DNA of 64,000 bases from Chaetoderma sp. LZ-2023a (lineage: Eukaryota; Mollusca; Caudofoveata; Chaetodermatida; Chaetodermatidae), in assembly GCA_034401795.1 (NCBI GenBank), contig CM067369.1, forward strand, positions 186,796,742-186,860,741, given 5' to 3'. Of this stretch, positions 3 through 64,000 are shown one piece after another (position 1 is the first letter of the stretch; every line of letters begins with the position of its first letter). The notes below the pieces were generated by a model. The model was given only the letters and a program-made list of their open reading frames with translations, was not told where the DNA came from and did no database searches. The position numbers and the translations under genes were made by a program.

Positions 3-458
3 CTACCTAGGATTAATTTCTTGTCTAAAAATCAGTCATTGAAATATCCAGGTCAACCTATTTTTTTGCCATCTTTAACTAGATATGATCCTAATTCTAA
101 AGTATGGTGCCCCGTACGGGCGCTGCTCCGGTACAAACAGCGTACTTCGGAGTGGCGTACCGACCAGTCAGCGTTATGGTTGTCATATATTGAACCCCAT
201 GGTAGGGCGTCTAAGGACACCATTTCTAGGTGGATTGTGGAATGTATTCAATTTTGTCACAAATCCGCCACCGGGCGACAGGTTGACGTGGCCAAGGCTC
301 ACAGTGTCCGCGGTGTCGTGACATCCACTGCCCTTTTTAATGGGGTCCCTGTGGATGATATTATGTCAGTGGCTCAGTGGCACTGTGAGTCTAGTTTTAC
401 AGACCATTACCTCCGTGACACCTCTAACCCTCTCGCCTTGTCGATTTTGAAACAATAA
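3..458 (+). CDS. Tyrosine recombinase, C-terminal part (DIRS copy 1)
   Basis: This is the C-terminal catalytic part of the DIRS YR, which integrates the circular DNA form of the element. The frame is open from the window edge to the TAA at 456-458. It contains the HSVRG box (catalytic His and Arg), the QWHC segment in the position of the third basic residue, and the DHYL nucleophile tyrosine. The catalytic Arg box of the N-terminal half lies upstream of the window. No lesion is visible in this part. Confidence 0.9.
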   Translation, partial: LPRINFLSKNQSLKYPGQPIFLPSLTRYDPNSKVWCPVRALLRYKQRTSEWRTDQSALWLSYIEPHGRASKDTISRWIVECIQFCHKSATGRQVDVAKAHSVRGVVTSTALFNGVPVDDIMSVAQWHCESSFTDHYLRDTSNPLALSILKQ

Positions 459-591
459 CCGCTTTATGTTTGTGAAGAGTGCCTCCGCATTGCTTATATA
501 CTTCGCCATTCAGCGACGGTGACAACCACTTGTCGGGACTGTATCATCCTTCTCTGCTGGAGTCATGATGACAGCTTCCTAGGACAACAAG

Positions 592-687
592 GTCAGTCTT
601 GTTCATGTGTTGTTCATTGTTTGTATTGTCACGTTACCCAGTGTTATTAATATGGTGATGGTTTATGTGGGTTGTGGTTCTTTATAG
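592..687 (+). other. Putative 3' intron of DIRS copy 1
   Basis: A candidate 96-nt intron lies 133 nt after the recombinase stop, with donor AAG|GTCAGT and acceptor TTTATAG|AG. The same donor and acceptor positions occur in every copy and in the divergent family at 38279-38366. Confidence 0.5.
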
Positions 688-985
688 AGAGTATACGAAA
701 ATGGAGCCTTTTCGTCTCTGTCCTATAGTACTTAGCACTAGTACGAAGAGAGCGTGTAGGACATTGAGGTCATTTAATCTTCCTCCCAAGGGAGGGGGGG
801 GAGCGCATATGACAAATCGGTCATCTCTCAGGCATCGGTTGTGTTATCCGATGGTTTATCAAATCCTGACTGTGTTTTCACACAGTTTCAGACGTCATAA
901 GTGCCTTAAAACGCTTGAAAGCGTATAGGGAAGAGCTGGTCTTTTGACCTCGCCTCCCTCCCGCCAGATTCACTTTCGAATTCTG

Positions 986-1087
986 GCAATATCAAAAGTA
1001 TTAGGGAGGTAAGTATACTCTTGATGTGAAATAAACGAAATCTAGGATTTCTTTTTTCACGAGAGAGTTGATACTTACCTCCCTAGA
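986..1087 (+). repeat. ICR of DIRS copy 1
   Basis: Internal complementary region. Its left half is the reverse complement of the element's left end and its right half the reverse complement of the right end, so it mirrors the junction of a circularised element. The two halves meet at TGAAATAAACG. Confidence 0.85.
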
Positions 1088-1152
1088 TACTGACCCGGCC
1101 TCTCCGCCCCACAGAGGCTCGGTCTTCAGGCTCTTGGTAGTTGCATGTGTTA

Positions 1153-1368
1153 GCCAATAAATGAGCCAGAGGAAGTAGTAGTCGGCGCATGCGCGGTGGT
1201 GGGGCGAGCATCCGCCGGACTACCTCTGACTCCCTGCCCAGTAGGGGCACCTAACTGTTTTTAATCTGAGTGTTTTATTGAGTGAAAGCCGATATTTAGC
1301 AATATCAAAAGTATTAGGGAGGTAAGTATCAACTCTCTCGTGAAAAAAGAAATCCTAGATTTCGTTTA
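1153..1368 (+). repeat. Right inverted terminal repeat, DIRS copy 1
   Basis: Inverse of the left terminal repeat seen in the other copies, plus a unique tail of about 40 nt after GGTAAGTAT that is absent from the left repeat. It includes an AATAAA hexamer just inside its inner edge and the GCGCATGCGC palindrome. Confidence 0.9.
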
Positions 1369-2253
1369 GTTACGTAGTTGATTATGATGTCATATGTTTG
1401 ATGGATAAACTGGAAAGGTCCATTACATCACTTGTTAGCCAATGTCACAATCAACATCATGTAGCTGTGTCATTTGTACAGATTGTGAGTGATTTGTACA
1501 TGTACATCTTAGAAAAATTTACAATTTAATATCCCTGTCAAATTAGTTTCAAAATATTCAACAGCTTACACGTATAGTTACCGTGAAATTGGAATTCTGG
1601 GAATTCAGTGCTCATGGTGTATAAATTTATTCAAATACTTAGCGACGTTGGTGTAGCTTAGCTAGGAATGCTGTGGCATATCTAGAAAGTGGTGTGGCAA
1701 AATATAAATGATGTTGCATACCTAGAAATGGATCCCTCTGTTCCTGTAATGGCTTCTGTCATCAATGGTTTTGAGTGTCAGTAAACAGGAAGGTGCTTTT
1801 ATTGCACTGTGTGTTTGTGGTGTGTATACTATTCCTATTAGATAATCAGACTGCCTATGAACTGTTTGCATACATGTCTGTCAGGAGAGAATAATGAGAT
1901 AACACAAATACTATTTTTCTACCTGATTTATAAAGATTTACCACTTTCAACCTACCTACCAGGTATGACAATTTCTTTACGATGCGAGGATTATTTTGTT
2001 GAATATTTCAACATTAATTTGAATGGAAGCTGGTGTTGCCTATTTAGGCAGTAACGTGTTCCAGTCAAAATTATGCTCAAAATGTTTACCAGCACTCAAG
2101 CTTCTAGGAATGTCCAACCTATTGGATGGTTTCATGATTTCTCTGAACCGTCAATTCTTATTTGTGTGTGATTCCGGTGGAAGTGGATGTATATGGATTT
2201 CAATGTTGAAAATGTTAGTTATCACTGATGCTGACTGTTTATTGTTTGTCTAG
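1369..2253 (+). other. Host intron with decayed hairpin repeats
   Basis: No gene is seen. The stretch 1525-1760 holds one half of the common hairpin repeat (CAAAATATTCAACAG and its usual flank with TTAGCTAG). A decayed full hairpin lies at about 1999-2090. The segment 1381-1430 matches the repeat seen beside copy 4 at 39158. Confidence 0.6.
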
Positions 2254-2323
2254 GTACATGCTGTGACAGCTGCCGGTGTGGGAGAAGGAAGTGATATCCT
2301 TATTGTGAGAACAAGTATAGGAG
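2254..2323 (+). CDS. RPTP exon a: end of a fibronectin III repeat
   Basis: Acceptor TTTGTCTAG and donor GAG|GTAGGC define 70 nt, entered in phase 0 and left in phase 1. The peptide VHAVTAAGVGEGSD is the typical F-G strand of a fibronectin type III domain, with V-A-x-x-A-G-x-G-x-S spacing. This is the first exon of the host gene visible here. Upstream exons, which would carry the signal peptide and further ectodomain, lie before the window. The exon was found by joining phases with exon b rather than from an isolated ORF. Confidence 0.8.
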
Positions 2324-3578
2324 GTAGGCTTAAAAACAGATCATTGTTAATGTGCTACCTCAGTTTACAGGCTTGTTTTTAGATGATTGTATGATTACTG
2401 TTTTTTGCAGCTGTGGTAGTAGATCCCTCCTACAGCTGCAATCAGTCTTTGCGTTTGACTACTGTGTCTTGTCCTCAGCCATGTAGCTGGTGCTTTCTTA
2501 CCATTGTTAATCAGTTAGTCTCTGAACAATGATATGATCTGTATTAAATCCATACCTATAAGCAGTATTATCTGTTAAATTTTAATTAGGTATGTTGCTC
2601 TATTACATTTATGCACTTCTTTAATCTATTTAAATTTATAAACACTGATAAATATATGAACAAATTATATATTTCAATTAAATAAACAAGTGCATAAATG
2701 TACTAGAACATCATATTTAGTTTAAATTTAACAGTTATAAATATTATATGGGGTAAACAGGTGTATATGTTTGTTGATAAGCTGTGCTTTTCCTGAAAAC
2801 ATATTTATACCATTAAACCTTACAGTCCAAAAAGGAGAAATTCTATTTCATGTAAGGAATCTCTGGTGAATATTTTGAAACTAATTTGACTGGCCACTGT
2901 TGCAGAAGCTTTCTAGTATAGTTGTCTTGAAATCGAGACACTGGAATTTTATTTGTTAATTGTCTCGCCACTGATTTAGACCAAGGTCACAGTGACCCTG
3001 ACATTGTGACCTCAACGTTATTGTGATGCTTCTCAATGATATATTTAACCATATATCCAAAATTTAATTCCATATCATAAGGAATTGTGAAGGATAAGAT
3101 ATTTTGTTAAATGCAAAAACTTAATTTTTGCAAACAGAATTTGCTACAAGGTCACAGTAACCTTGCTCTTTGCTGTTGTGACATCAATGCCCCACCCATA
3201 CTGCTTCCTAAACAACGGAAAATTCATATTAATAGAGATAACTAATCGTGAAAAACAAGTTGATGTTTTGATAAGCGCAAAACCTTAATGTTGACAGAAA
3301 AGTTATATCTATGCTAATTTGATATCATTATTTTTTACTTTATGACCCGTAGATTTTAATAATTCATCAATTATTTTCATTAATCATCATCTTAGCATTA
3401 TTTCTGCTCCCCTTATGTTTCGGCTCCTGCTCATTTTGGAAATTGTGCTGCTGTAAGTTCTGCAAAGCAACAGCCTTCAACTGCACTATTTTATATATGG
3501 ACATGAGTTGTAAATCCGAATGTATTATGCTGATGCTTATCAACAGAAGGTGAATTTCAATGAAATTGTGTTTTAAAG
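2324..3578 (+). other. Host intron
   Basis: No gene is seen. It contains an inverted-repeat element at 2572-2734 and one arm of the common hairpin repeat near 2868-2905. The rest is AT-rich unique-looking intron. Confidence 0.6.
2572..2734. repeat. Long inverted repeat, MITE-like
   Basis: Arms of roughly 55 bp, from CTGTTAAATTT at the left to AAATTTAACAG at the right, share the core TACATTTATGCACTT in inverted form. A loop of about 50 nt separates them. No coding capacity is seen. A small non-autonomous DNA element is likely, but target duplications are not clear. Confidence 0.6.
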
Positions 3579-3685
3579 TTCCAGGTTCTGTATCATCTCT
3601 GAAGAACACAAGTCGAAATGAAGACGAAATAGAACTTAGCTGGAAGCCACCCAAACAACTCGGTCAAAGTTTGCTATATTATACA
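3579..3685 (+). CDS. RPTP exon b: start of a fibronectin III repeat
   Basis: The acceptor ends TTTTAAAG and the donor is ACA|GTAAGT. The 107 nt are entered in phase 1 and left in phase 0. The peptide runs from VPGSVSSL through IELSWKPP to LLYYT, a canonical fibronectin III A-to-C strand pattern with the core Trp and the Y-x-V/I position. The reading continues directly into exon c (YT then ITCRP). Copy 2 of the DIRS element lies in the intron that follows. Confidence 0.85.
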
Positions 3686-3790
3686 GTAAGTTTACTAGAA
3701 ACCAATGCCATAACTTATCCCTTACAACTAATTCGTATTTTGGACTAAGATCTTGGAGAGGTTAGGGGGCGAAGTCAAAAGGTTAACCCC

Positions 3791-3983
3791 TTTCACATCA
3801 AGAGTATACTTACCTCCCTAATACTTTTGATATTGCTAAATATCGGCTTTCACTCAATAAAACACTCAGATTAAAAACAGTTAGGTGCCCCTACTGGGCA
3901 GGGAGTCAGAGGTAGTCCGGCGGATGCTCGCCCCACCACCGCGCATGCGCCGACTACTACTTCCTCTTTGCTCATTTATTGGC
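3791..3983 (+). repeat. Left inverted terminal repeat, DIRS copy 2
   Basis: Reverse complement of the inner part of 10608-10823. It contains inverted TTAGGGAGGTAAGTAT near the tip, the block GGTGCCCCTACTGGGCAG, the NRF-1-like GCGCATGCGC at 3941-3950, and an ETS-like TTCC at 3961. It probably includes the promoter, since gag exon 1 starts 90 bp inside it. Confidence 0.92.
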
Positions 3984-4073
3984 AAAGGGTTACATGCGGT
4001 TTTGTGATTTTCATACTTTTCTGCGCGTTGCCTTGTTTTTCGCTCACGTTTGACGTTTATTTTTGGTGGAAGC

Positions 4074-4124
4074 ATGTCGGAAAGGGAGGATTCGCCTCTA
4101 GAAGGAGCGGGATCGCTTTATCAG
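4074..4124 (+). CDS. gag-like ORF, exon 1 (DIRS copy 2)
   Basis: A 17-codon first exon (MSEREDSPLEGAGSLYQ) ends at CAG|GTGAAT in phase 0. It joins in frame to the acceptor at 4892, giving a 4125-4892 intron. The intron holds no other supported exon, although it contains a CRE-like TGACGTCA and a second acceptor-like site near 4269. The peptide is unchanged in copies 3, 5 and 6. The divergent copy 4 has a different short peptide at the same place with the same phase, which supports real splicing. Confidence 0.65.
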
Positions 4125-4892
4125 GTGAATTCTTTGATATGCTAGCGTGTTTTGTCCCGGTTTAATGTATTTCCGGGACTCGCGCTTACCGTGATTAGCG
4201 CCTGATTATGTTGGGTTTTTACAACATGGTGCTTCATATGTCTCATTTCTCTTTGTGTTTTGTCCACAGGTATCGCATAGAAGCTTTGGTGGACTTTTCG
4301 GCACAAGAGGATATGTTTTCTCTCCACCACGGTTCCATTTCCTACTAATACTGTTAGGTTATCTAACCAAAAGATCTATGTTCAGTGAGTTGGAGGCCTG
4401 TTATAAAGGTCTTCTCACTTTGCCCTCTTGCTCCAATTCCTTCCCCTGAGGTGGAGAGAATGTAGAGGCGTACTATGGTGGAGTTCTCCGGTTCATCACG
4501 TTGGATGGTTTGTCTATACAAGGATCAGGTATCTAATTATAATGTAAACAAAAGGGGAGATAATTTCCCTTTTTGCCAATACTAGAATTGGAAGGAGTTA
4601 TCTCTGTATATCTGATTGTTGTGTACTCGAAATGCCAATTCAACGGAAATGTTCCGTTTTACTTATACAATTCGTTCTTGCTCTTGGTGCTTGTTGCGGA
4701 TCGATTAATTTGGTCACGAGAGTGATGACGTCATAATCGGCCTTGGCCTTTTTATTAACAATTAACGTTTTGTCCATGGCTGGTTCTTCTTGATTTCTGA
4801 TCTTGATGATCCTGTCCTCTCTTTTTAGTTGGTTTTGAGTTTGCTAACCTTAACTATCTTGCTCATTGTCCCTGTCCTTTGTCCTGTTTCAG

Positions 4893-6941
4893 AGACCTGG
4901 TTGCCCGTCCTGCGGGAGGTTTCTGAAAAGCCGCTTCGTCCCGCACTTGTGCTTCAGCTGCAGTCCCTGTGGACCGTTGCTGAAGTGCGACGTATGTAAG
5001 CTGTGGGGGGGCGAATTAATGTCTGATTTTCTCGCATTGCAGGCAAGGGAGAAGGTAATGGAGGAAGAGAGGAAGAAGAAGGAGAAAGTGTGTAAGAAGG
5101 GTAAGAAGAAGGCCTCATCCGCGGTGGATATGGAGGCCTTCAGGTCCGAAATGTTGCAAGAGATGCAGAGGACAATAAAGGATCTGGTCCCAGAGTTGCT
5201 TCGTGGCATGCTCCCTGGGCCAGCTCCTTTGTTGTCCTCGGCATCTGCTTACGAGCAGGTGATCCCCGCCTCTGAATCCGGTCTCTTTAGGTCCGGTCCG
5301 GTTGTGGATTCAGAGGTGGCCCCTTTGTTGGGGGCAGTCCAAGGCCCTGGCAGCAGGCATGGCGCCGCGCCGAGGGGCCGTGGACAACGGTTGTTGCTGG
5401 GACCCGCGGTCTGCTCATCAGACCCCGGGTATCCGCGCGCCGAAGGTGCCAAACCCTCCTATGGCACCTTTCCTGGCCAGTCCGGGTTAGCTTTCTTTGC
5501 TGACCCGGAGTCTAATCTTTCTGGCCAGGAAGAAGAGGATCTCCTGCTGGGGTCGCCTTCTGAGGACGTGGCCATGGAATACGACGTCTGTGCACCCCTC
5601 GCGGGGAATGCAGGCGACGTGTTCCATGGTTCTACTCACGCAGGAGTAGATTTCACGGTCCAGAGGGTGTCCCCGGGCGGTGCTGTTGACCACGGATACC
5701 GCATACCTCGGCTTGCCGATGGTATGGCTGGTGCTGGTCAGACCCGTGGTAGAGCGGTGTTTACCCCGCGCTCTGCCACGGCGCCTGCTCCTGGTCAAGC
5801 CGCGGATTTTAGCATGCCTGCTCTCTCGGGCCCGCATGCTTTTCCAGGCTTGCCAGGGGTATCAGCTTACCCGCCGTCGACATCAACTGCGAGTGCTCTG
5901 GAGGAAGACGAAGGCCCTCGTCTAGTAGAGCGCTCGCAGTTAGCCACGGAGGAGGATTGGTCGGACGCTTGCCAGTGGCTGGTAAGTGTTCGGCCAGATC
6001 TACCCGTGGAGCTGCCGGCTAGCCAGCGTGACCATAGGCCGTGGTTAGCTGGTAGGCCGGCGGCTACCGCTATGCCATCTCTGCCGCTTGCTGAGCATGT
6101 CGTGGACATGTTCGAAGCGGCAGAGGCGTCCATTAAGGTGAATGGACGTCTCGCGAAGGCCCCTCGCGAGGTGGCGAAGCGGTGCCGCATCGTGCCCCTG
6201 GATTACCAGCGGTACGGTGTGGTGCCAAAGCCGAGCGTTGATGATCGCGCGGCTTTGGGCGAAGATGCGCGGCCGGGCTCCCGTTCTGACACGGGAGTCT
6301 TGTGCTCGAACGCGTTGCGTTCGGCAAATGCCGCGCTGCGGGATGCGGAGGAGAGTGGGAGAGCGTCGATTGCCGCTCTATCCCACGTTTCCCAGCTGCT
6401 ACAAGGGGTGGTAGCGGCTTCCGCATCACGCCAACCTAGCCCGGTGACAGTCCAGAGAGCCATTCAGGATGGTATCAACCTGGCTTTGGACTGTTTGACG
6501 CGGGCGGTAACCAGAAGTGTCCGGGCGAGGCGCACGTTTGCGCTTGACAATCTGTGCCCGTCCCAGGACCTGTATAATAGGCTGCTGCGGACGCCTATGA
6601 CAGGTCCTGGTCTCTTTGGAGGTGAGGGATGCAGGCACCTCCAGGAGACGGTCACTCTGGTTAATAACCAGAGGGCGCTGCGGGAACAATTTGAGGTGCT
6701 CCGGCGGGAGCGTGTTCGCGCGGCACCCCCTGCGTATCGTCCTCTGCAGGCTCGAGGTGGTGCTGGCCAGGTCAGGGGCCAGCCACCGTCGCAACGTAGG
6801 CCTAGGCCACGGGCGATTCGGCCAGCAGTGAGGGGGGCGCAGGCTCCCCAGCCGCACCCAGCCAGACAGCAGCCCGCGCACCGTGGTGCGCGCGGCGCTG
6901 GGCGGGGCGCGCGGGGATCTGGTCGCGGTAATCGGGCCTGA
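4893..6941 (+). CDS. gag-like protein, exon 2 (DIRS copy 2)
   Basis: The main exon starts after TGTTTCAG. It encodes an N-terminal zinc-binding segment (CPSC, HLCFSC, CDVC), a Lys/Glu-rich coiled-coil-like stretch, a low-complexity acidic middle, a conserved C-terminal block (DNLCPSQ, GPGLFGGEGCRHLQ) and an Arg/Gly-rich tail. Such ORFs in DIRS elements are taken to be capsid or nucleic-acid-binding proteins. This is inferred from position and composition, not from a recognised domain. The frame is intact, with 7 G in the homopolymer after the zinc finger. The stop TGA is at 6939-6941, inside the start of the RT frame. Confidence 0.8.
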   Translation, partial: RPGCPSCGRFLKSRFVPHLCFSCSPCGPLLKCDVCKLWGGELMSDFLALQAREKVMEEERKKKEKVCKKGKKKASSAVDMEAFRSEMLQEMQRTIKDLVPELLRGMLPGPAPLLSSASAYEQVIPASESGLFRSGPVVDSEVAPLLGAVQGPGSRHGAAPRGRGQRLLLGPAVCSSDPGYPRAEGAKPSYGTFPGQSGLAFFADPESNLSGQEEEDLLLGSPSEDVAMEYDVCAPLAGNAGDVFHGSTHAGVDFTVQRVSPGGAVDHGYRIPRLADGMAGAGQTRGRAVFTPRSATAPAPGQAADFSMPALSGPHAFPGLPGVSAYPPSTSTASALEEDEGPRLVERSQLATEEDWSDACQWLVSVRPDLPVELPASQRDHRPWLAGRPAATAMPSLPLAEHVVDMFEAAEASIKVNGRLAKAPREVAKRCRIVPLDYQRYGVVPKPSVDDRAALGEDARPGSRSDTGVLCSNALRSANAALRDAEESGRASIAALSHVSQLLQGVVAASASRQPSPVTVQRAIQDGINLALDCLTRAVTRSVRARRTFALDNLCPSQDLYNRLLRTPMTGPGLFGGEGCRHLQETVTLVNNQRALREQFEVLRRERVRAAPPAYRPLQARGGAGQVRGQPPSQRRPRPRAIRPAVRGAQAPQPHPARQQPAHRGARGAGRGARGSGRGNRA

Positions 6942-9073
6942 TGGCCTGGTTACCGCGGTGGGAACCACTCCGGTGTTGCAGGCCGAGAGAACAGTGCCAC
7001 TCTGGCCCTCCTTATGTCCACCTCTATCCCTAGGTGGACCGGTGGGCGGCCGTTTGGCCGCCCGCTTGCCAGAGTGGAAGCGGTTGACTCAGGACCGTTT
7101 AGTCTTGCGATGGCTTTCGGTCGGGTATCGTCCCGACTGGGTGACAGGCCCGCCATCGCGACTGTCTCTCGCGCCGATCTGGACTCCCATTCCACGGGAT
7201 CCGGATCAGAGGTTGTGTATAGAGGAGGAAATAAATTCCCTCATACTAAAAGAAGCCATTCAGCCGGCACAGAGGTGCCCGGGCTTCTATTCAACCCTGT
7301 TCTTAGTAACAAAAAAACACCGGAGGGTGGAGGCCGATTCTCAACCTCAAGCCGTTGAACAAGTTCATCGAGACACCCAGTTTCAAGATGGAGACTGTGC
7401 GCTCGGTGTTGGCGGGGTTAGAACGAGGGATGTGGACAGCGTCGATAGATTTGAAGGATGCTTATTTCCACATTCCCATAGAGAGGAGTTTCCGTCGATT
7501 CCTGAGATTTGCATTTCAGGGCCGGCGGTGGGAATTCAGGGTGTTACCCTTCGGAATTTCCACGGCTCCTCGGGTCTTCACCCGTGTGGTTCTCGCGATC
7601 ACTGCATACCTCCGCAGGAGAAGCATAGCAGTCCACACGTACATAGACGACTGGCTATTGAAAGCACACACCCGGGAATCGTTGTCAGCCAATCTGGAGA
7701 TTGTTTTGAAAACTCTCTCGGACTTGGGCTGGATAATCAATTTCCCGAAATCAGAGCTAACTCCATCCCAGAAGTTTGTTTACCTGGGCATGTTCTTCGA
7801 TCTGGAGACGGGGTATGTGTACCCCACTCAGGAGAGGGTTCAAGTACTCATCTCGGTAATTCAGTCGGTGTGCGACAGTCGTCATGTCCTGGCACGGGTT
7901 TACTTGAGAATGCTGGGCTTGATGGTTTCTTTGGAACCAGTCATTCCACAGGCCGCCTTGCGCAGGCGTCCGATCCAGTTGTTTCTCATGACACAGTGGA
8001 CCCAGAGTTCAGGTTCGCTGGACTCGAACGTGCCGGTGTTGGCGCCTCTGATTCACCACCTGCAATGGTGGTTGAATACAGAGAATCTCTTGCTGGGGGT
8101 TTTGCTAACCCCTCCCCACCCTCAGGTGACTGTGTATACAGATGCATCGATGGAGGGGTGGGGAGCTTGTCTGGAAGAGTCCACAGTATCAGGGCTTTGG
8201 GATCTGGATCAGTCCAAGGAACATATCAATCTACTAGAGCTAAGAGCAGTAGTCCTGGGCCTGGAACATTTCTTACAGAAAGTTCAGGGCAAGATTGTTC
8301 TAATTCGTTCAGACAACTCAACAGTAGTGACTTACATAAACCGCCAGGGCGGAACGAAGTCGCCCAGTCTCTGTATGATGACATGGGGACTGCTTTGTTG
8401 GTGCCTGGATCATGGGATCACCTTGAAAGCAGTTCATATTCCGGGGAGGTTAAATCTGCTAGCAGACTCATTGAGCCGAAGGATGAGTGTTTTACCCACG
8501 GAATGGCAACTAAATCAATGTGTGGCGGATCGTCTGTTCGACCATTGGGGGAAACCCAACATAGATTTGTTCGCGATGAAGAAGAATGCGAAGATGACAA
8601 CGTACGTCTCTCCGATTCCAGACCCAAGCGCTTTCGCAACAGATGCGTTAGCTATCAGCTGGGAGGGAATGTATGCATACGCATTCCCCCCAGCAATCCT
8701 GATTCCAAAGGTGCTTCAGAAAATCAGGCAGCAGGAGTGCCAAGTGCTTCTGATCGCCCCGGATTGGCCAAGCCGATCGTGGTATACGGATCTGCTGGAC
8801 CTTCTGGTCTGCAATCCGGTTCCGCTGCCTCTGATGGACAACCTTATCTTCCAGGGCAAGGCCCTTCACGACAATCCGTCAATGTTCCGATTGACTGCGT
8901 GGATGTTGTCAAGGAATCTAGAATTAAGGAGGGCTTTTCTGAGCAAGCGGCCATGTTTATGGCCAAAGCCAGGAGGGGGTCAACCTCCAGAGCATATAAT
9001 TATAAAATCAACAGATTTGCAGAATGGTGCTCAAAAAGATGTATTGATCCAATGGAATCATCTATTCAGGTAG
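6883..9073 (+). pseudogene. RT-RNase H ORF with a frameshift (DIRS copy 2)
   Basis: Same ORF as 46171-48360, but the A-run at 7311-7317 has seven A where the 43079 and 54054 copies have six. The shift falls between FLVTK and NTGGWRP in the fingers of the RT, before the YIDD box. Downstream the correct frame is open from 7355 to 9073, with YIDDWLLKA and all RNase H acidic residues. Upstream, 6883 onward runs into the recombinase frame, making one artificial 1009-codon ORF to 9912. A sequencing error in the homopolymer cannot be excluded. Confidence 0.85.
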
Positions 9074-9912
9074 TGGCTGATTTCCTCTGTCACCTATATG
9101 ATGCCTATAGCCTCAAGCCTAACTCTATTGCTGGTTATAAGTCAGCTTTAATGACTGTTATTCCTTGCTTGGCTAATAGGGGGAGTGATGAAGTAAGTAC
9201 ATTAAATGTATTAATTAAAGGCATGGGCAATCTAAGACCAAGGAATCCTCCACTGATTCCGTCTTGGAGTTTATCACTGGTGCTCCAGGTACTAGGTGAT
9301 AAGCCTTTTGAACCACTTAGTTCCATTTCTATGAAAATGTTAACTCTTAAAACTGTATTTTTAATTGCTGCGGCCTCGGCTAGGCGTAGGAGTGAAATTC
9401 ACGCCTTATCAGCCGAGGTTGACCGTTTTGTGGTTACAGGGGAAGGCCTTAAGCTTCTACCTAGGATTAATTTCTTGTCTAAAAATCAGTCATTGAAATA
9501 TCCAGGTCAACCTATTTTTTTGCCATCTTTAACTAGATATGATCCTAATTCTAAAGTATGGTGCCCCGTACGGGCGCTGCTCCGGTACAAACAGCGTACT
9601 TCGGAGTGGCGTACCGACCAGTCAGCGTTATGGTTGTCATATATTGAACCCCATGGTAGGGCGTCTAAGGACACCATTTCTAGGTGGATTGTGGAATGTA
9701 TTCAATTTTGTCACAAATCCGCCACCGGGCGACAGGTTGACGTGGCCAGGGCTCACAGTGTCCGCGGTGTCGTGACATCCACTGCCCTTTTTAATGGGGT
9801 CCCTGTGGATGATATTATGTCAGTGGCTCAGTGGCACTGTGAGTCTAGTTTTACAGACCATTACCTCCGTGACACCTCTAACCCTCTCGCCTTGTCGATT
9901 TTGAAACAATAA
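8953..9912 (+). CDS. Tyrosine recombinase (DIRS copy 2)
   Basis: YR that integrates the element's DNA circle. From the ATG at 8953 (MFMAKARRGSTSRAYNYK) the ORF has an N-terminal DNA-binding domain and a C-terminal catalytic domain with ARRRSEI, HSVRG, QWHC and DHYL. The frame is also open far upstream through the RT region. I chose 8953 as the first in-frame Met before the conserved domain. It overlaps the end of the RT frame by about 120 bp. No lesion is seen. Confidence 0.85.
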   Translation: MFMAKARRGSTSRAYNYKINRFAEWCSKRCIDPMESSIQVVADFLCHLYDAYSLKPNSIAGYKSALMTVIPCLANRGSDEVSTLNVLIKGMGNLRPRNPPLIPSWSLSLVLQVLGDKPFEPLSSISMKMLTLKTVFLIAAASARRRSEIHALSAEVDRFVVTGEGLKLLPRINFLSKNQSLKYPGQPIFLPSLTRYDPNSKVWCPVRALLRYKQRTSEWRTDQSALWLSYIEPHGRASKDTISRWIVECIQFCHKSATGRQVDVARAHSVRGVVTSTALFNGVPVDDIMSVAQWHCESSFTDHYLRDTSNPLALSILKQ

Positions 9913-10045
9913 CCGCTTTATGTTTGTGAAGAGTGCCTCCGCATTGCTTATATACTTCGCCATTCAGCGACGGTGACAACCACTTGTCGGGACTGTATCA
10001 TCCTTCTCTACTGGATTCATGATGACAGCTTCCTAGGACAACAAG

Positions 10046-10542: not shown

Positions 10543-10607
10543 TACTGACCCGGCCTCTCCGCCCCACAGAGGCTCGGTCTTCAGGCTCTTAGTAGTTGCA
10601 TGTGTTA

Positions 10608-18669: not shown

Positions 18670-18720
18670 ATGTCGGAAAGAGAGGACTCACCTTTGGAAG
18701 GAGCTGGATCTCTTTATCAG
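18670..18720 (+). CDS. gag-like ORF, exon 1 (DIRS copy 3)
   Basis: Codes the same 17 residues as copy 2 despite several silent changes (for example GGAGCTGGATCT against GGAGCGGGATCG). This is consistent with selection on the peptide. The donor is CAG|GTGATT and the intron would run from 18721 to 19486. Confidence 0.62.
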
Positions 18721-19486
18721 GTGATTTCTATGATATTCTAGCGTGTTTTGTCCCGGTATAATGTGTTTCCGGGACTCGCGCTTACCGTGATTAGCGCCTA
18801 TTTGAGTTGGTTTTTTACAACATGGTGCTTCATAAGTCTCATTTCTCTTTGTGTTTTTGTCCACAGGTATCACGTAGAAGCTTTGATGGACTTCTCGGCA
18901 CAAGAGGATATGTTTCTCTCCACCACGGTTCCATTTCCTACTAATACTGTTAGGTTATCTAACCAAAAAATCTATGTTCAGTGAGTTGGAGGCTTGTTAT
19001 AAAGGTCTTCTCGCTTTGCCCTCTTGATCCAATTCCTTCCCCTTCGGTGGAGAGAGTGTAGAGGCGTACTATGGTGGAGTTCTCCGGTACATCACGTTGG
19101 ATGGTTTGTCTGTACAAGGTGTCAGGTATCTAATTATTGATAAACAAAAGAGGAGATAATTTCCTTTTTTGCCAATGCTAGAATTGGAAGGAGTTATCTC
19201 TGTATATCTGATTGTTGTGTACTCGAAATGCCAATTCAACTGGAATGTTCCGGTTACTTATACAATTCGTTCTTGCACTTGGTGCTTGTTGCGGATCGAT
19301 TATTTTTGTCACGGGATTGATGACGTCATAATCGGCCGTGGCCTTTATTAACATTTAACGTTTTGTCCAACGCTGGTTCTTCTTGACTTGCGATCTTTAG
19401 GATCCTGTCCCTCTCTTTTTAGTTGGTTTTGAGTTCGCTAACCTTAACTATCTTGCTCATTGTCCTTGTCCTTTGTCCTGTTTCAG

Positions 19487-31457: not shown

Positions 31458-31505
31458 ATGGCTGATGCTAAACTGTTGGAGGAGTCCTCCTCGTCATCAT
31501 CTAAG
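31458..31505 (+). CDS. gag-like ORF, exon 1 (DIRS copy 4)
   Basis: A 16-codon exon (MADAKLLEESSSSSSK) ends at AAG|GTGGCA in phase 0, the same layout and phase as exon 1 of the other family, although the residues differ. It joins in frame to the acceptor at 32442 (KCPSC follows). The intron 31506-32442 holds a (CT)n run near 32247-32264 and no gene. Confidence 0.58.
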
Positions 31506-32442
31506 GTGGCATTGTTCCTTGTATTTATTTAAGACTTGTAACTTTTATTTGTTACCGGTTTTCGGCGCGCCCGTTTCGGCGGTACCGCGTTTTCAGGCGC
31601 TGGGAATCCTTGTAAAAAATGTTCCCAGCGCCTAGGGCTATTAATCTCTTGTGTTTTATGCTTACAGGTTTGTCTTGTGTCTGAACAAGGATTCCTGTTC
31701 TTCTCTCGAAGGTGTTCACGGTCCGGGTTTGACTTATCATCGTGATATGTCTAAGGGTTGGAGATATTAAATTAATAAATGAAATATCTCCTTCCTTTTG
31801 TCCCATCCCCCTCATCAGTTCTTCTGGAAGAGGAGTCTCGGCGGATGGATGGACGTGTTCTCCTGCACAAGAGGATGGTTGCCTGTGCTCAGGCTAAGGG
31901 AGTTTATTAATTATGGCGCATAATTATTTGAAAATAATCACAATATCCTGCTGCCTTTTGCTAATGCACTATATTCTCTCTTGCATGTGCACGGGTTCTC
32001 GAATATATATAATTTAATATTATATTATTCGGGAGGTTTGAATGTCTTTAATAGCTAGATATTTCTTGCATTCTTTCTGACATCCCCTCTCCTTGAAGGA
32101 GCTTTTGCATTGAGGTTTGATGTCATAATCAACCAGAGTTTTTCTCCTTCCTTGATGTCATAATCTTAGGTTTAGAGAAGTCTGTGATGTGTTCATCTCC
32201 CTTTTTATTAGGAGGATGTAGAGATATCTAGATAGTCATAATCTTTCTCTCTCTCTCTCTCTCTTAATTTGGGGTCCTGGTTGTGATTGGTTTTATTAAC
32301 TAGAGAAGTCAGCTGTCCCGTCAGGGTTGTCTGTCATAAAAGTGGATTTCTTCTCTCGAGTTTGGTTTGGTTTCTACTAATAGTCAATTAACAAGGCTTT
32401 GAAACTATCATACTCATTGTCTTCATATCCCTTCCCTTTCAG

Positions 32443-33480
32443 AAGTGTCCATCCTGTCTGAAGCCTATGAAGGCTAGATTCTTCCCCCACGCTTGCCATC
32501 TGTGTTCAGCTTGTAGGCTAACTAACAAATGTGTCATTTGTAAAGAGTTGGGGGGGGGGGGATCTAACCTCTGAATTCTTCTCTTTTCAGGCTAAGATGA
32601 TGGCTGAGGAGGGCAAGAAGTCTAAGAAGGAGGGTAAGAAGAAGGCCTCTGAGAAGGGTGGGCTCGAGGCCTTCACGGTTGAGTTAGTGAGTGAGATGCG
32701 CAGGACTTTTAAAGACCTGATGCCTGACATGCTTTGCAGCATGTTGCCTGGCACAGGTGTTTCAACTTCCTGCGCATCGACCTCAATGGACGACTGCGCC
32801 GCTCTGGGGGAAGATACGCGGCCGGGTTCCCATGCTGACACGGGTGCATTGTGCACGGGCGCTATGCGCTCGGCGAATGCCGCCTTGCGCGACACCGAGG
32901 AGAGCTCGCGAGCGGCGATTAGTGCGCTGTCGCATGTCTCTCAGCTGCTATTGGGGGTGGTAGCAGCGTCGGTGCAGCAACAGCCTAGTCCCGTGACAGT
33001 CCAACGAGCCATCCAGGATGGCATCAACCTGGGGTTGGACTGTCTGACTAGGTCGGTCACAAAGTCACTGAGAACGAGGCGCACTTTTGCATTGGACAAT
33101 TTGTGCCCGTCTCAGGAGCTCAAGTCGCGCTTGTTGCAAGCGCCGATGGTGGGACCTGGGCTCTTTGGAGGTGAAGGTTGTCGGCACCTCCAGGAGACAG
33201 TGACTTTGGTGAACAAGCAGAGGGTGCTGCGCGCACAGTTTGAAGTGCTGCGCAGAGAACACGTGTGTGTTCAGCCCTCGGCTGCTCGGCAGCAGTACGC
33301 TCGTGGCGGTGCTGGCAGTGTCAGGCCAGCAGGCCGGCCGGTTTCAGAGACCGCGTCGACTGCGCCAGCAGCAGCGTGCTGTTGTACGTCAGCCAGCGCC
33401 TCAAGCGCAGCCAGCCACACAGCAGCCCGCGCACCGTGGTGCATGTGGCGCTGGTCGCGGCGCGTGGTAACCGGGCCTGA
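32443..33480 (+). pseudogene. gag-like protein, exon 2, degraded (DIRS copy 4)
   Basis: Starts after CCCTTTCAG with a zinc-binding segment (CPSC, HACHLCSAC, CVIC). A run of twelve G at 32550-32561 then shifts the frame and a stop follows. The rest is open in another frame with the conserved block DNLCPSQ to GPGLFGGEGCRHLQ. A second indel near 33330 moves the Arg/Gly-rich tail out of frame and fuses gag to the RT frame, giving one long ORF (32531-35617). The acidic central region present in copies 2-6 is absent. Confidence 0.75.
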
Positions 33481-36456: not shown

Positions 36457-36475
36457 AATAATGTAGAGGTTTATA

Positions 36476-43361: not shown

Positions 43362-43412
43362 ATGTCGGAAAGGGAGGATTCGCCTCTAGAAGGAGCGGGA
43401 TCGCTTTATCAG
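43362..43412 (+). CDS. gag-like ORF, exon 1 (DIRS copy 5)
   Basis: Same peptide and donor as copy 2. The predicted intron is 43413-44180; splicing would give a 699-residue gag-like protein that starts with MSERED instead of the unspliced MSLSFVLFQ. Confidence 0.65.
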
Positions 43413-44180
43413 GTGAATTCTTTGATATGCTAGCGTGTTTTGTCCCGGTTTAATGTATTTCCGGGACTCGCGCTTACCGTGATTAGCGCCTGATTATGTT
43501 GGGTTTTTACAACATGGTGCTTCATATGTCTCATTTCTCTTTGTGTTTTGTCCACAGGTATCGCATAGAAGCTTTGGTGGACTTTTCGGCACAAGAGGAT
43601 ATGTTTTCTCTCCACCACGGTTCCATTTCCTACTAATACTGTTAGGTTATCTAACCAAAAGATCTATGTTCAGTGAGTTGGAGGCCTGTTATAAAGGTCT
43701 TCTCACTTTGCCCTCTTGCTCCAATTCCTTCCCCTGAGGTGGAGAGAATGTAGAGGCGTACTATGGTGGAGTTCTCCGGTTCATCACGTTGGATGGTTTG
43801 TCTATACAAGGATCAGGTATCTAATTATAATGTAAACAAAAGGGGAGATAATTTCCCTTTTTGCCAATACTAGAATTGGAAGGAGTTATCTCTGTATATC
43901 TGATTGTTGTGTACTCGAAATGCCAATTCAACGGAAATGTTCCGTTTTTACTTATACAATTCGTTCTTGCTCTTGGTGCTTGTTGCGGATCGATTAATTT
44001 GGTCACGAGAGTGATGACGTCATAATCGGCCTTGGCCTTTTTATTAACAATTAACGTTTTGTCCATGGCTGGTTCTTCTTGATTTCTGATCTTGAGATCC
44101 TGTCCTCTCTTTTTAGTTGGTTTTGAGTTTGCTAACCTTAACTATCTTGCTCATTGTCCCTGTCCTTTGTCCTGTTTCAG

Positions 44181-46229
44181 AGACCTGGTTGCCCGTCCTG
44201 CGGGAGGTTTCTGAAAAGCCGCTTCGTCCCGCACTTGTGCTTCAGCTGCAGTCCCTGTGGACCGTTGCTGAAGTGCGACGTATGTAAGCTATGGGGGGGC
44301 GAATTAATGTCTGATTTTCTCGCATTGCAGGCAAGGGAGAAGGTAATGGAGGAAGAGAGGAAGAAGAAGGAGAAAGTGTGTAAGAAGGGTAAGAAGAAGG
44401 CCTCATCCGCGGTGGATATGGAGGCCTTCAGGTCCGAAATGTTGCAAGAGATGCAGAGGACAATAAAGGATCTGGTCCCAGAGTTGCTTCGTGGCATGCT
44501 CCCTGGGCCAGCTCCTTTGTTGTCCTCGGCATCTGCTTACGAGCAGGTGATCCCCGCCTCTGAATCCGGTCTCTTTAGGTCCGGTCCGGTTGTGGATTCA
44601 GAGGTGGCCCCTTTGTTGGGGGCAGTCCAAGGCCCTGGCAGCAGGCATGGCGCCGCGCCGAGGGGCCGTGGACAACGGTTGTTGCTGGGACCCGCGGTCT
44701 GCTCATCAGACCCCGGGTATCCGCGCGCCGAAGGTGCCAAACCCTCCTATGGCACCTTTCCTGGCCAGTCCGGGTTAGCTTTCTTTGCTGACCCGGAGTC
44801 TAATCTTTCTGGCCAGGAAGAAGAGGATCTCCTGCTGGGGTCGCCTTCTGAGGACGTGGCCATGGAATACGACGTCTGTGCACCCCTCGCGGGGAATGCA
44901 GGCGACGTGTTCCATGGTTCTACTCACGCAGGAGTAGATTTCACGGTCCAGAGGGTGTCCCCGGGCGGTGCTGTTGACCACGGATACCGCATACCTCGGC
45001 TTGCCGATGGTATGGCTGGTGCTGGTCAGACCCGTGGTAGAGCGGTGTTTACCCCGCGCTCTGCCACGGCGCCTGCTCCTGGTCAAGCCGCGGATTTTAG
45101 CATGCCTGCTCTCTCGGGCCCGCATGCTTTTCCAGGCTTGCCAGGGGTATCAGCTTACCCGCCGTCGACATCAACTGCGAGTGCTCTGGAGGAAGACGAA
45201 GGCCCTCGTCTAGTAGAGCGCTCGCAGTTAGCCACGGAGGAGGATTGGTCGGACGCTTGCCAGTGGCTGGTGAGTGTTCGGCCAGATCTACCCGTGGAGC
45301 TGCCGGCTAGCCAGCGTGACCATAGGCCGTGGTTAGCTGGTAGGCCGGCGGCTACCGCTATGCCATCTCTGCCGCTTGCTGAGCATGTCGTGGACATGTT
45401 CGAAGCGGCAGAGGCGTCCATTAAGGTGAATGGACGTCTCGCGAAGGCCCCTCGCGAGGTGGCGAAGCGGTGCCGCATCGTGCCCCTGGATTACCAGCGG
45501 TACGGTGTGGTGCCAAAGCCGAGCGTTGATGATCGCGCGGCTTTGGGCGAAGATGCGCGGCCAGGCTCCCGTTCTGACACGGGAGTCTTGTGCTCGAACG
45601 CGTTGCGTTCGGCAAATGCCGCGCTGCGGGATGCGGAGGAGAGTGGGAGAGCGTCGATTGCCGCTCTATCCCACGTTTCCCAGCTGCTACAAGGGGTGGT
45701 AGCGGCTTCCGCATCACGCCAACCTAGCCCGGTGACAGTCCAGAGAGCCATTCAGGATGGTATCAACCTGGCTTTGGACTGTTTGACGCGGGCGGTAACC
45801 AGAAGTGTCCGGGCGAGGCGCACGTTTGCACTTGACAATCTGTGCCCGTCCCAGGACCTGTATAATAGGCTGCTGCGGACGCCTATGACAGGTCCTGGTC
45901 TCTTTGGAGGTGAGGGATGCAGGCACCTCCAGGAGACGGTCACTCTGGTTAATAACCAGAGGGCGCTGCGGGAACAATTTGAGGTGCTCCGGCGGGAGCG
46001 TGTTCGCGCGGCACCCCCTGCGTATCGTCCTCTGCAGGCTCGAGGTGGTGCTGGCCAGGTCAGGGGCCAGCCACCGTCGCAACGTAGGCCTAGGCCACGG
46101 GCGATTCGGCCAGCAGTGAGGGGGGCGCAGGCTCCCCAGCCGCACCCAGCCAGACAGCAGCCCGCGCACCGTGGTGCGCGCGGCGCTGGGCGGGGCGCGC
46201 GGGGATCTGGTCGCGGTAATCGGGCCTGA
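44181..46229 (+). CDS. gag-like protein, exon 2 (DIRS copy 5)
   Basis: Intact. The first 40 residues hold a probable zinc-binding array: CPSC, then HLCFSCSPC, then CDVC. A Lys/Glu-rich helix follows (EKVMEEERKKKEK), then an acidic Gly/Pro-rich middle, then the conserved block RAIQDGINLALDCLTRAV to GPGLFGGEGCRHLQ, and a basic Arg/Gly/Pro tail ending GRGNRA. The unspliced frame opens slightly upstream at 44154. The role is presumed to be RNA packaging; no named domain is recognised. The stop is 46227-46229, and the RT frame is +1 relative to it. Confidence 0.85.
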   Translation, partial: RPGCPSCGRFLKSRFVPHLCFSCSPCGPLLKCDVCKLWGGELMSDFLALQAREKVMEEERKKKEKVCKKGKKKASSAVDMEAFRSEMLQEMQRTIKDLVPELLRGMLPGPAPLLSSASAYEQVIPASESGLFRSGPVVDSEVAPLLGAVQGPGSRHGAAPRGRGQRLLLGPAVCSSDPGYPRAEGAKPSYGTFPGQSGLAFFADPESNLSGQEEEDLLLGSPSEDVAMEYDVCAPLAGNAGDVFHGSTHAGVDFTVQRVSPGGAVDHGYRIPRLADGMAGAGQTRGRAVFTPRSATAPAPGQAADFSMPALSGPHAFPGLPGVSAYPPSTSTASALEEDEGPRLVERSQLATEEDWSDACQWLVSVRPDLPVELPASQRDHRPWLAGRPAATAMPSLPLAEHVVDMFEAAEASIKVNGRLAKAPREVAKRCRIVPLDYQRYGVVPKPSVDDRAALGEDARPGSRSDTGVLCSNALRSANAALRDAEESGRASIAALSHVSQLLQGVVAASASRQPSPVTVQRAIQDGINLALDCLTRAVTRSVRARRTFALDNLCPSQDLYNRLLRTPMTGPGLFGGEGCRHLQETVTLVNNQRALREQFEVLRRERVRAAPPAYRPLQARGGAGQVRGQPPSQRRPRPRAIRPAVRGAQAPQPHPARQQPAHRGARGAGRGARGSGRGNRA

Positions 46230-54337: not shown

Positions 54338-54388
54338 ATGTCGGAAAGGGAGGATTCACCTTTAGAAGGAGCGGGATCTCTTTATCAG
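54338..54388 (+). CDS. gag-like ORF, exon 1 (DIRS copy 6)
   Basis: Same 17 residues as copies 2, 3 and 5. Donor CAG|GTGACT; predicted intron 54389-55153. Confidence 0.63.
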
Positions 54389-55153
54389 GTGACTTCTTTG
54401 ATATGCTAGCGTGTTTTGTCCCGGTTTAATGTATTTCCGGGACTCGCGCTTACCGTGATTAGCGCCTGTTTGTGTTGGTTTTTTACAACATGGTGCTTCA
54501 TAAGTCTCATTTCTCTTTGTGTTTTGTCCACAGGTATCACGTAGAAGCTTTGATGGACTTCTCGGCACAAGAGGATATGTTTTCTCTCCACCACGGTTCC
54601 ATTTCCTACTAATACTGTTAGGTTATCTAACCAAAAGAATATGTTCAGTGAGTTGGAGGCCTGTTATAAAGGTCTTCTCACTTTGCCCTCTTGATCCAAT
54701 TCCTTTCCCTTCGGTGGAGAGAATGTAGAGGCGTACTATGGTGGAGTTCTCCGGTACATCGCGTTGGATGGTTTGTCTGTACAAGTGTCAGGTATCTAAT
54801 TATTGATAAACAAAAGGGGAGATAATTTCCCTTTTTGCCAATGCTAGAATTGGAAGGAGTTATCTCTGTATATCTGATTGTTGTGTACTCGATATGCCTA
54901 TTCAACGGGAATGTTCCGGTTACTTATACAATTCGTTCTTGCACTTGGTGCTTGTTGCGGATCGATTAATTTGGTCACAGGAGTGATGACGTCATAATCG
55001 GCCTTGGCCTTTATTAACATTTAACGTTTTGTCCAAGGCTGGTTCTTCTTGATTTGCGATCTTGAGGATCCTGTCCCTCTCTTTTTTAGTTGGTTTTGAG
55101 TTCGCTAACCTTAACTATCTTGCTCATTGTCCCTGTCCTTTGTCCTGTTTCAG

Positions 55154-61079: not shown

Positions 61080-62219
61080 GATTCCAGGCAAATTAATTTC
61101 CAAATTTTCAACTGAATATGCCTCGCATAATAAAGAATTTGTCATTGTTTTGCTCTGTGAGTGTTAAAGTGTTAATGTACTAGGTAAAGGAGGATTCCAG
61201 TTTATCCGTCAATCATATGACGTCTAGGATGATGCCATAAGCAATTCACCTTTCCAGAGTATCCATCTCTCAATCTAACGTCATATAATGTCATAATCAG
61301 CTAAGTGGCGTGTAGGATGACGTCATAATCATTACACCATAGATGATTCTATTTGGCCCGTCTTTAACTCTTAATAGTCTGACACGTTGTACGAATTGTA
61401 TTTCTACTTCGAATAATACTTACCAGATGTACTATTATGATAATGTCTATTAGCTAGTCTAGCTCAAAATAAACAATTAAAACTCCGCACTCTCCTGGTC
61501 CTGCCCATACTGTGTCCGGGAATAGCATAGCCGCAGGTACCGAATCAATTCCCAATCACAGTCAGATTCGTCTATTTTGCGCTCTTGGAAAGTCGCATGT
61601 TTTGTTAGCTCAAAATTGTGCAATTTTAAGCGGATTTAAGCATGTTATTCGTGAATCATCGTTGGCTTCTTGGAGGAAAAAGGAAAATCATCACGGGGGC
61701 AGGTTGTATCAATCTAGAATTTATACATTCGTGCCATAATGACTGTTTGAAATTTCCTTAAATTGGCACATTATTCTAAAATGGTAGCCATTGTTGGAGT
61801 CGCTCTGTACCCGTTAACTCTTTAGTTTTAATCCGGGTACTGGGTTAATTTCTCTTGCGACTCGGTTCCTTCCAAGATGAATGCGCCCTTAGCCAAGATG
61901 GCAGCACCCATGATTAATATTTCGCTTGGCTTGGCGTGTCTATGCACTCTGTTTTACACTGATTTTAGCTCTCGCTTCATTGTCGAGGGTGTTTGTAGCG
62001 ATCAGCATTTATTTCTTGGCTGTTTTAACGTTAGTTAACTTCCAAGTTGTCTTTTGACTCAAAAAGTTTGAAATATTTCCTGCCTAAAGGCTTGATTATC
62101 ATTAATTTAAAAGAAAGCTAATGTTTCTAAGTAATTCTATTTTACAATCAAGTCAATTGTGCGTATTGCTCGTCATCGTTTGTCATGTGCAGCGTTTTAA
62201 TTCTTCTCTGTGTTTGCAG
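61080..62219 (+). other. Host intron and 5' region of a third DIRS-like relic
   Basis: 61080-61400 is the remaining half of the hairpin repeat interrupted by copy 6 plus its flank (TGACGTCATAATCA-like blocks). From about 61490 the base composition changes. This part may belong to the relic that follows, but no terminal repeat or first exon was identified. An ATG at 61878 opens a frame of about 50 codons with no recognised feature. Confidence 0.5.
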
Positions 62220-64000
62220 AAAGCCAAAGACCAGGACACATTGTGCCACAAATGCAACAGGTTCATGAAGCACAAGTACTCAGGCCATCATTGTGTGGCT
62301 TGCGCTAAGTGCAAGGTGGGAAGTCCCTGTGATGTGTGCGCCAAGTGGTCGTCGGAAATGGTGGCGGAATTCGATCGTGATCGTCGTGCGCGCTTGGAGA
62401 GGATCGCGAGGGACAAGGCGGCCAAGCTGGATCAGGCGTCGATGAGAGGACTGGAACGTCGTCTGAATGAACGTATGGATTCAGCACTGGGTGTAAGGGA
62501 TGCCCAGTTCAAGGCAATGTTTGAGTCCTTGCAGTCCACGATCCTGACGATGCAAGCTGGTGCAGGGCAACCTTTAGGTGGTCCGGCTAGTTCTGCGGAG
62601 GGATGAGCACCTGTCCCTTCTCTGACCTTGGCTCAAGAGCCGACGGCGGAGGAGGAAGATCTTCTAATGGAAGATGCCGGATATCTCGCTGACGGCTATG
62701 CCTAGTACATCCCAGGGATCTCCCTCGGGATTTGTACGGGTTTGCCAAGCAGGTGGTGATGTCGACGTTCCGTCAGGCATTTTCCACCCGGATTTCGTGC
62801 AACCTGTGTTGTCTGTGAAGCCATGTTTTACGGTTCCTAGCGGAATCCCGGCGGCGTTAGGTGCGGCTCCTCTCGGAATGCCGGCACCTACCGTAGTAAA
62901 AGCGGCTGTGGTCCCGGCTCCCGTGCTGGAGTCGATGGACTGCGGTGAATCCGTGTCCGGCGATCCGTTGGACACTGGTGCTGCTAGTAGTCGGGCTATG
63001 GACATGCCTCATGTTGGCAGAAGTGCCTGCCATAGCTCTCAGCATAGATCGTCAGTGGCCTACTCATCCAAGGGTGAGAAGGAGGATGAAAACGGTAGGC
63101 CTTTGATGGACGAATCCGCTTTCTGCACCGAAGCTGAATGGGTGCAGGTCCTTGGTGGATGTCCGACCATCTCGGGTTGGCATCGGATCTAGGATCTCAG
63201 CGCGATCCGGCGATGGAACGGATGTCAGAGCGAGCGGCTAGCGCTCTGTCAAGTGGCTCTTCGGCCATGCCGACGCTCCCTTTGGACACGCAGACTTCCG
63301 ACATGTTGGAGGTTGCAGCATATTGTCTGGTTCAGCCAGAGTATGCGTTGCCCAAGGCCCCGAAGGGGATAAGGAGTAGGGTCCGTTTTCCTGAGCAGGC
63401 CTACCATCAGTATGCCCGGGTTCCACGGCTTTCCATCGGGGAGCGAGAGGCGCTGAATAGGCCGTTGGCTGGAAAACCTAAGGGGCGTACTCGTCCTTTA
63501 GTTTCCCAAGCCAATAAAGATCTGTTCAATGAGCTGACACTCATTGAAGATGCGGCGAGGGCAGCCATGGCTGCGCTCTCGCACGGATGTACCATCCCTT
63601 GCTGACCTGCGCGGCGGAAGCTGGACAAGTGCCAGAGGCTGCTCCGAGAGTTGTTCGGACACCATGCGCTTGTCCCAAGATTGCTAGACCAGTGTGATCA
63701 CCAGATCATTGGCAGAGCGACAGAGAATGGTTCTCGATTGTGTAGAACCAGGACCTGAGATACGGACTGCGTTATCTTCTGCGCCTTTCATTGGTCCAGG
63801 CTTGTTCGGCAGCTCGGCACGACAAGCCTTATCCAAGGTCGCGTCAATGGTTGCTGAACAGGAAGTAGTCGGCAAGTCGTGGAAGTCGACTAAGAGGACA
63901 CAGCCACTGCAGTCCTATAAACAGCATCGGCACGAGCAGCAGAGGCGGCGCCAAAGATCGCCCTTCTGGCCGTGATGCCTATCGGGAATCCGGATCTCAG
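62121..64000 (+). mobile_element. Third-family DIRS-like element, degraded, cut by the window end
   Basis: Identified by its gag-like region, which shares the zinc-binding opening and the GPGLFG block with copies 2-6 but is strongly diverged. The 5' boundary is uncertain and RT/YR lie beyond the window, so the assignment rests on gag alone. Confidence 0.7.
62220..63975 (+). pseudogene. gag-like pseudogene of a third DIRS-like family
   Basis: Begins after TGTGTTTGCAG, again a phase-0 acceptor just before a zinc-binding segment (CHKC, HHCVACAKC, CDVC). An Arg/Lys-rich helix follows, and the frame stops at TGA 62604-62606. Later parts match the other gags in changing frames: EEEDLLMEDAG near 62660, TEAEWVQVLG near 63130, MLEVAAYCL to VPRLSIGEREALN near 63300-63460, IEDAARAAMAALSH near 63545, and PFIGPGLFG near 63790. 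At least one stop and two or three frameshifts are needed to join them, so it is non-functional. Confidence 0.75.

Follow-up and report, generated by a model that had tools for sequence, protein, structure and literature searches.

Genomic copies of retroviruses and Penelope-like elements keep introns, in retroviruses because the unspliced RNA is the one that is copied. The division of transcripts between translation and copying is a major question for retroelements according to excerpts of PMC3735527, in which separate RNA pools are described for the barley Copia element BARE1: a spliced RNA is used for Gag synthesis, and packaging and reverse transcription use a different one. The Arabidopsis Ty1/Copia element EVADE produces a spliced short GAG RNA, which is cytosolic and translated, and an intron-retaining full-length RNA, which is mostly nuclear and represents the reverse-transcription template (excerpts of PMC8892269).

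Introns in retroelements and spliced gag RNAs are already known. In a recent survey, exons and introns are given for DNA transposons and only the coding sequence for retrotransposons (excerpts of PMC12477816). The strings "intron" and "splic-" are absent from the texts of two DIRS papers (PMC3266345 and, for Xenopus DIRS, PMC9210276). Text searches of PMC3783388, PMC9004415, PMC5633606 and PMC8547959 returned no report of a DIRS intron, and none occurs in passages of PMC5718144, PMC5890265 and PMC3212892. No DIRS intron thus came up in the literature searched; the founding DIRS papers and Repbase entries, which lay outside it, could hold one. A conserved DIRS gag intron that precedes the gag body and is retained in nearly two thousand copies is apparently new within this partial coverage of the literature.

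DIRS1-like elements in the window

The window, i.e., the whole 64,000-nucleotide stretch analyzed here, derives from a Chaetoderma sp. LZ-2023a assembly of 2.44 Gb in 2,753 contigs, all of which was covered by the genome-wide counts. It contains a DIRS remnant at the left edge, copies 2, 3, 5 and 6 of one family (family 1), the divergent copy 4 and a third-family element:

3791-10828, copy 2 (family 1), approximate element extent
18387-25406, copy 3 (family 1), element extent
31189-39056, copy 4 (divergent, second family), element extent
43078-50111, copy 5 (family 1), element extent
54054-61084, copy 6 (family 1), element extent
~61402 to ~68087, third-family element, right end outside the window (stretch L029)
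3791..3986, + strand, left inverted terminal repeat of copy 2 (repeat comparison)
61402..61580, + strand, left inverted terminal repeat of the third-family element (repeat comparison)

Inverted terminal repeats and an internal complementary region, a DIRS1-like trait, are present, and the terminal repeat arms of copy 2 (3806-3967 and 10623-10784) are 100% complementary. DIRS1-like elements are not known to produce target-site duplications. In the RT frame Pfam RVT_1 is matched at 5.9e-23, above the cut-off, and RT_RNaseH (3e-4) and Dam (1.6e-3) are matched weakly, each under its curated cut-off; by these matches RT, RNase H and a Dam-like methyltransferase appear to share one frame, as in DIRS1-like elements, the assignment being weak for the latter two. 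The putative recombinase frame gives only weak N-terminal phage-integrase matches (0.012 and 0.018, below the cut-off), and its position and overlap with the RT frame are compatible with a DIRS1-like recombinase. A comparison of the RT protein with viral contigs found no relative. The RT of copy 4 is 79% identical to that of family 1; the third-family RT reaches 59-64% over its two main stretches and 42% over a short one at the N terminus.

Several features of individual copies were observed. In copy 5 (46230-49199) the recombinase frame lies in the gag reading frame, opens right after the gag stop with no further stop and extends through the RT frame. An open frame of 341 residues (36787-37812), Tc1/mariner transposase-like by eye, sits between the recombinase frame of copy 4 and its right end. 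In a third-family copy (L062) the 5' end just before exon 1 is, by eye, swapped for family-1-type terminal-repeat sequence, probably by a nested insertion. Gag contains a G run of 7 nt in copies 2 (5005-5011), 5 (44293-44299) and 6 (55266-55272), of 9 nt in copy 3 (19599-19607) and of 12 nt in copy 4 (32550-32561); at this run the gag frame of copies 3 and 4 starts, by eye, only behind or inside another frame.

A putative gag intron in three families

The following gag features were delimited, slashes marking exon borders:

4074..4124, + strand, copy 2 gag exon 1, MSEREDSPLEGAGSLYQ, 51 nt, 17 codons, phase 0
4125..4892, + strand, copy 2 intron, CAG/GTGAAT ... TTTCAG, 768 nt
4893..6941, + strand, copy 2 gag exon 2, opening with the Cys/His segment (frames, alignment)
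18670..18720, + strand, copy 3 exon 1 (family alignment)
18721..19486, + strand, copy 3 intron, 766 nt
31458..31505, + strand, copy 4 exon 1, MADAKLLEESSSSSSK, 16 codons
31506..32442, + strand, copy 4 intron, 937 nt
32443..32554, + strand, copy 4 exon 2 start, Cys/His segment (alignment)
43362..43412, + strand, copy 5 exon 1 (family alignment)
43413..44180, + strand, copy 5 intron, 768 nt
44181..46229, + strand, copy 5 gag exon 2 (open frame)
54338..54388, + strand, copy 6 exon 1 (family alignment)
54389..55153, + strand, copy 6 intron, 765 nt
61670..61702, + strand, third-family exon 1, 33 nt, 11 codons, start codon lost in the window copy
61703..62219, + strand, third-family intron, 517 nt
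62220..62606, + strand, third-family gag exon 2 start, Cys/His segment (open frame, alignment)

An earlier note on this DNA had proposed a short phase-0 exon with a GT donor in copies 2, 3, 5 and 6, and its coordinates are exact. The layout it gave for copy 4 (31458-31505 joined to 32443) is likewise exact and recurs in relatives, and its phase-0 acceptor at 62219 in the third-family relic is correct, the corresponding exon 1 now having been found. Its exon length of 16-17 codons is corrected to 17 for family 1, 16 for the family of copy 4 and 11 for the third family.

The family-1 sample comprised 34 exon-1 places in 29 records (the window and L001-L028); the acceptor lies within the sequence for 33 places, and the remaining one is cut by the end of L026. 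In all 33 copies covering both borders the intron is 764-769 nt long and of the GT..AG type, with the borders CAG/GTGA (donor) and CAG/AGAC (acceptor). The peptide MSEREDSPLEGAGSLYQ is found in 34/34 places; conservation of exon 1 and the donor is partly built in, since 30 places were chosen by a match there, 22 by an exact match to a pattern of the last 6 codons of exon 1 plus the donor and 8 by an exact match to 4074-4400. The remaining 4 are the window copies, chosen without such a match, and all seven variable exon-1 sites already differ among them.

For the second family, 3,571 first-look candidates were obtained, 40 were scored and 30 loci including copy 4 were taken. Exon 1 was found in 27 of the 30 loci, its length being a multiple of 3 in all 27 and its majority peptide being MADAKLLEESSSSSSK; a GT donor is present in 26 of the 27, and intron length varies freely (868-1000 nt). 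The three loci lacking exon 1 (L034, L040, L046) terminate or are rearranged within the intron, whose 3' part is kept. The donor GTGGCA of copy 4 is a private variant: among its 26 relatives with exon 1, 25 have GTGACA and one is without GT. Twelve stretches were sampled from 3,755 third-family candidates. The exon-1 ATG is intact in 12/12 sampled copies other than the window copy, and the peptide MEEKGKSSQGQ occurs in 6/12. With the window copy included, exon-1 length is a multiple of 3 in 11/13, GT is present in 13/13 and AG in 12/13.

Exon 1 starts 283 nt (family 1), 269 nt (second family) and 268 nt (third family) from the element 5' end, and the 3'-terminal 64 nt of the family-1 and family-2 introns give an alignment that beats all 1,000 shuffles. 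Three families whose RT sequences are 59-79% identical thus have the position of the putative intron in common. Position, phase and spacing common to such distant families indicate an old intron.

Exon 1 of family 1 has seven variable sites, of which none is nonsynonymous in the gag frame and 6 and 7 are in the other frames; the chance of an all-synonymous exon is ~9e-5 assuming independent changes, which copies of the same family do not strictly provide. Of the 18 shared variants between the acceptor and the first in-frame ATG, 14 are synonymous against an expected fraction of 0.25 (p 4.8e-6; 32 of the 33 family-1 copies, one gapped copy being omitted). Variable sites at codon positions one, two and three number 1/0/6 in exon 1 and 13/6/22 in exon 2, with an excess at the third position in each. 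The intron has no codon pattern (22/17/24, p 0.54). Gap columns common to at least two family-1 copies are absent from exon 1 and number 18 in the intron, 9 in exon 2 and 15 upstream.

Some observations count against splicing. The family-1 intron does not change faster than the exons (variable sites make up 8.2% of the intron, against 13.7% of exon 1, 9.8% of the initial 420 nt of exon 2 and 12.8% of the upstream region). Among the old copies of the second family, exon 1 bears little mark of selection (of its shared variants, 3 are synonymous and 2 nonsynonymous), and the third-family donor CAG/GTTGTA is a weak consensus match; the donors of copy 2, copy 4 and the third family agree with the consensus at 8/9, 6/9 and 5/9 positions, respectively.

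Other candidates were discarded. A second tiny intron in exon 2 of copy 2 (GTATGT ... TTGCAG) was ruled out by eye, because copy 4 has no GT at this site and the Cys pattern within the segment is shared. A further coding exon, beginning at an internal acceptor at 4270, was dropped by eye because its length and amino acids are not the same in copies 3 and 6. A PDB sequence search with the Cys/His segment gave one match (E 0.66), and a Pfam PHF5 match (0.0036) to this segment of copy 4, below the cut-off, was regarded as chance. Rfam gave 2 matches at E up to 1, neither reaching the gathering score.

Intron retention and the origin of Gag

The family-1 unspliced donor pattern, with up to 3 mismatches, has 1,919 matches in the whole assembly (964 and 955 by strand); its reversed control has 0. 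The same whole-assembly search for the family-1 spliced junction gave 0 matches. Zero matches alone do not prove rarity; the 1,919 donor matches serve as the positive control, and the junction pattern would detect 33/33 two-exon copies if they were spliced. Spliced family-1 copies thus have an upper bound near 0.16% (rule of three). The third-family spliced junction also has 0 matches in the whole assembly, 11 of 13 sampled copies being detectable if spliced. In the second family 30/30 sampled loci have intron sequence before the acceptor, and none looks spliced. Retention of the intron in genomic copies, as claimed earlier, is borne out in this way, and the search for intronless copies that the earlier note had called for returned none for families 1 and 3.

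Gag is very probably translated from an RNA spliced after the tiny first exon, with the unspliced RNA serving as the reverse-transcription template. On the DNA, the exon borders, their phase, protein-level selection on both sides and the three-family layout are observed, and no intronless copy was found. Splicing of gag at the RNA level, as deduced from these data, is the only reading found that covers the selected exon 1, the selected pre-ATG stretch, the phase-0 borders in three families and the intervening stops, and it is supported by them. The full-length transcript would start upstream of exon 1. In the spliced RNA, exon 1 would be in frame with the Cys/His segment, and Gag would be produced. 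The unspliced RNA, which cannot encode Gag because of the intron stops, would enter reverse transcription; new genomic copies would keep the intron since it is the unspliced RNA that is copied. If the spliced RNA were copied, some dead intronless insertions would be expected, because both ends and the internal complementary region remain in it. Splicing spares the terminal repeats and the internal complementary region, so end loss cannot explain the exclusion; therefore, if copies come from RNA, another sorting step must act. Packaging, nuclear retention or a separate start site could exclude the spliced RNA from reverse transcription.

Gag synthesis without splicing, from the first exon-2 ATG (position 5019 in copy 2) or from a non-AUG codon, with exon 1 as a short upstream frame, is highly improbable. 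An unspliced frame from TTG at 4866 does exist, and in the third family one ATG follows the upstream stop ahead of the acceptor. However, the Cys/His pattern already lies ahead of the first exon-2 ATG in three families, and in family 1 this stretch shows protein-level selection, as does exon 1 itself. Upstream of the acceptor the frame stays open for no more than 39 nt in copy 2 and 51 nt in copy 4; this segment has no ATG and includes the pyrimidine tract. A downstream or non-AUG start was rejected, as protein selection precedes the first ATG.

Splicing could be real and the intron kept because most copies arose as DNA, through recombinase circles or tandem and segmental duplication; complete intron retention is also expected in this case, which counts against the preferred reading. 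A putative recombinase frame is present in these elements, and DNA circles are substrates of tyrosine recombinases. In L026 a unit made up of exactly the first 3,207 nt of the element is repeated head to tail (250-7601, C2:3398000-3405600; two complete units plus a partial one truncated at the stretch end, 99.4% like copy 6), but this array is one of 20 sampled stretches and was chosen for its spacing. The 1,919 donor matches (the listed ones are scattered over many places) and the 729-residue RT-RNase H frames in copies 5 and 6 fit RNA-mediated spread, and origin as DNA is improbable for most copies. Two start sites, one for messenger and one for template RNA, could leave splicing without a sorting role. 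BARE provides a precedent, with capped and uncapped RNAs from two TATA boxes (excerpts of PMC3735527); the template must nevertheless contain the intron and the upstream terminal repeat, because genomic copies have both, and this arrangement is considered rather unlikely.

Candidate signals and comparison with known systems

Within the preferred reading, splicing of gag with the unspliced RNA as template, it is a tentative proposal that the intron acts as a sorting device: it would hold a signal admitting RNA to reverse transcription, and splicing would irreversibly turn the template into a Gag messenger. Parts of such a device would be a GC-rich hairpin (three families), an overlapping acceptor-donor (two families) and U1-like terminal-repeat sequences. 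The former two are located as follows:

4154..4179, + strand, copy 2, GC-rich hairpin after the donor, GTCCCGG / CCGGGAC, candidate signal only
31595..31633, + strand, copy 4, 12-bp perfect hairpin after the donor, candidate signal only
4265..4274, + strand, copy 2, overlapping acceptor and donor CACAG/GTATC inside the intron, kept in 33/33 sampled copies

A GC-rich hairpin lies 29-104 nt past the donor in three families. The best hairpin in the first 160 nt of one copy per family has p values of 0.0075, 0.0025 (floor) and 0.012 from 400 dinucleotide shuffles, values that are not independent since the families are related. These introns are rich in short inverted repeats (8 to 15 pairs per region), and within-family changes do not prove the pairing. 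A paired change in the third-family hairpin of one copy (L060) was not counted, because, by eye, the two changes fall on CpG sites and pairs are broken in other copies. The hairpin is a lead only as a sorting signal.

The first base after AG of the overlapping acceptor-donor is at 4270, 18867, 43558 and 54534 in family 1 and at 31668 in copy 4 (TTACAG/GTTTG). The site lies 145-146 nt past the donor in family 1 and mostly 161 nt (range 94-170) in the second family, its AG/GT being unchanged in 33/33 and 27/27 copies, respectively; the single third-family intron scanned has none. By its sequence it looks like a recursive or decoy splice site.

In all three families, GTAAGTAT is found in sense orientation in both the internal complementary region and the right terminal repeat, with differing flanks: at window positions 10464, 10777, 25043, 25356, 38705, 39024, 49752, 50065, 60721 and 61033 and, beyond the window, at 67736 and 68034 of the third family. 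Its complement is found near the left end of the element. It fits the 5' splice-site consensus (the complement of the U1 RNA 5' end), and splicing, polyadenylation control or recombinase binding are possible roles.

The count of 0 spliced family-1 copies against 1,919 unspliced ones puts a number on the split between translation and copying. In annotation, gag models starting from the first exon-2 ATG miss the Cys/His segment, and the same intron may hide in DIRS annotations elsewhere.

The elements resemble DIRS1-like elements (PMC3266345, PMC9210276) in having gag, RT-RNase H-methyltransferase, a putative recombinase frame, inverted terminal repeats and an internal complementary region. Retroviral gag is produced from unspliced RNA, in contrast to the DIRS gag described here, for which spliced RNA would be used. 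BARE and EVADE are the nearest working analogues of the proposed scheme, belonging to another order of elements. As in BARE1, separate RNAs would be used for Gag and for copying; BARE1, however, belongs to the LTR order, and its spliced subgenomic RNA encodes only Gag from one long frame. The DIRS intron precedes the gag body, so that unspliced RNA cannot make Gag. As in EVADE, spliced RNA would give Gag and intron-retaining RNA would be the template, whereas splicing in EVADE is coupled to premature cleavage and polyadenylation and DIRS splicing would join a start exon to gag.
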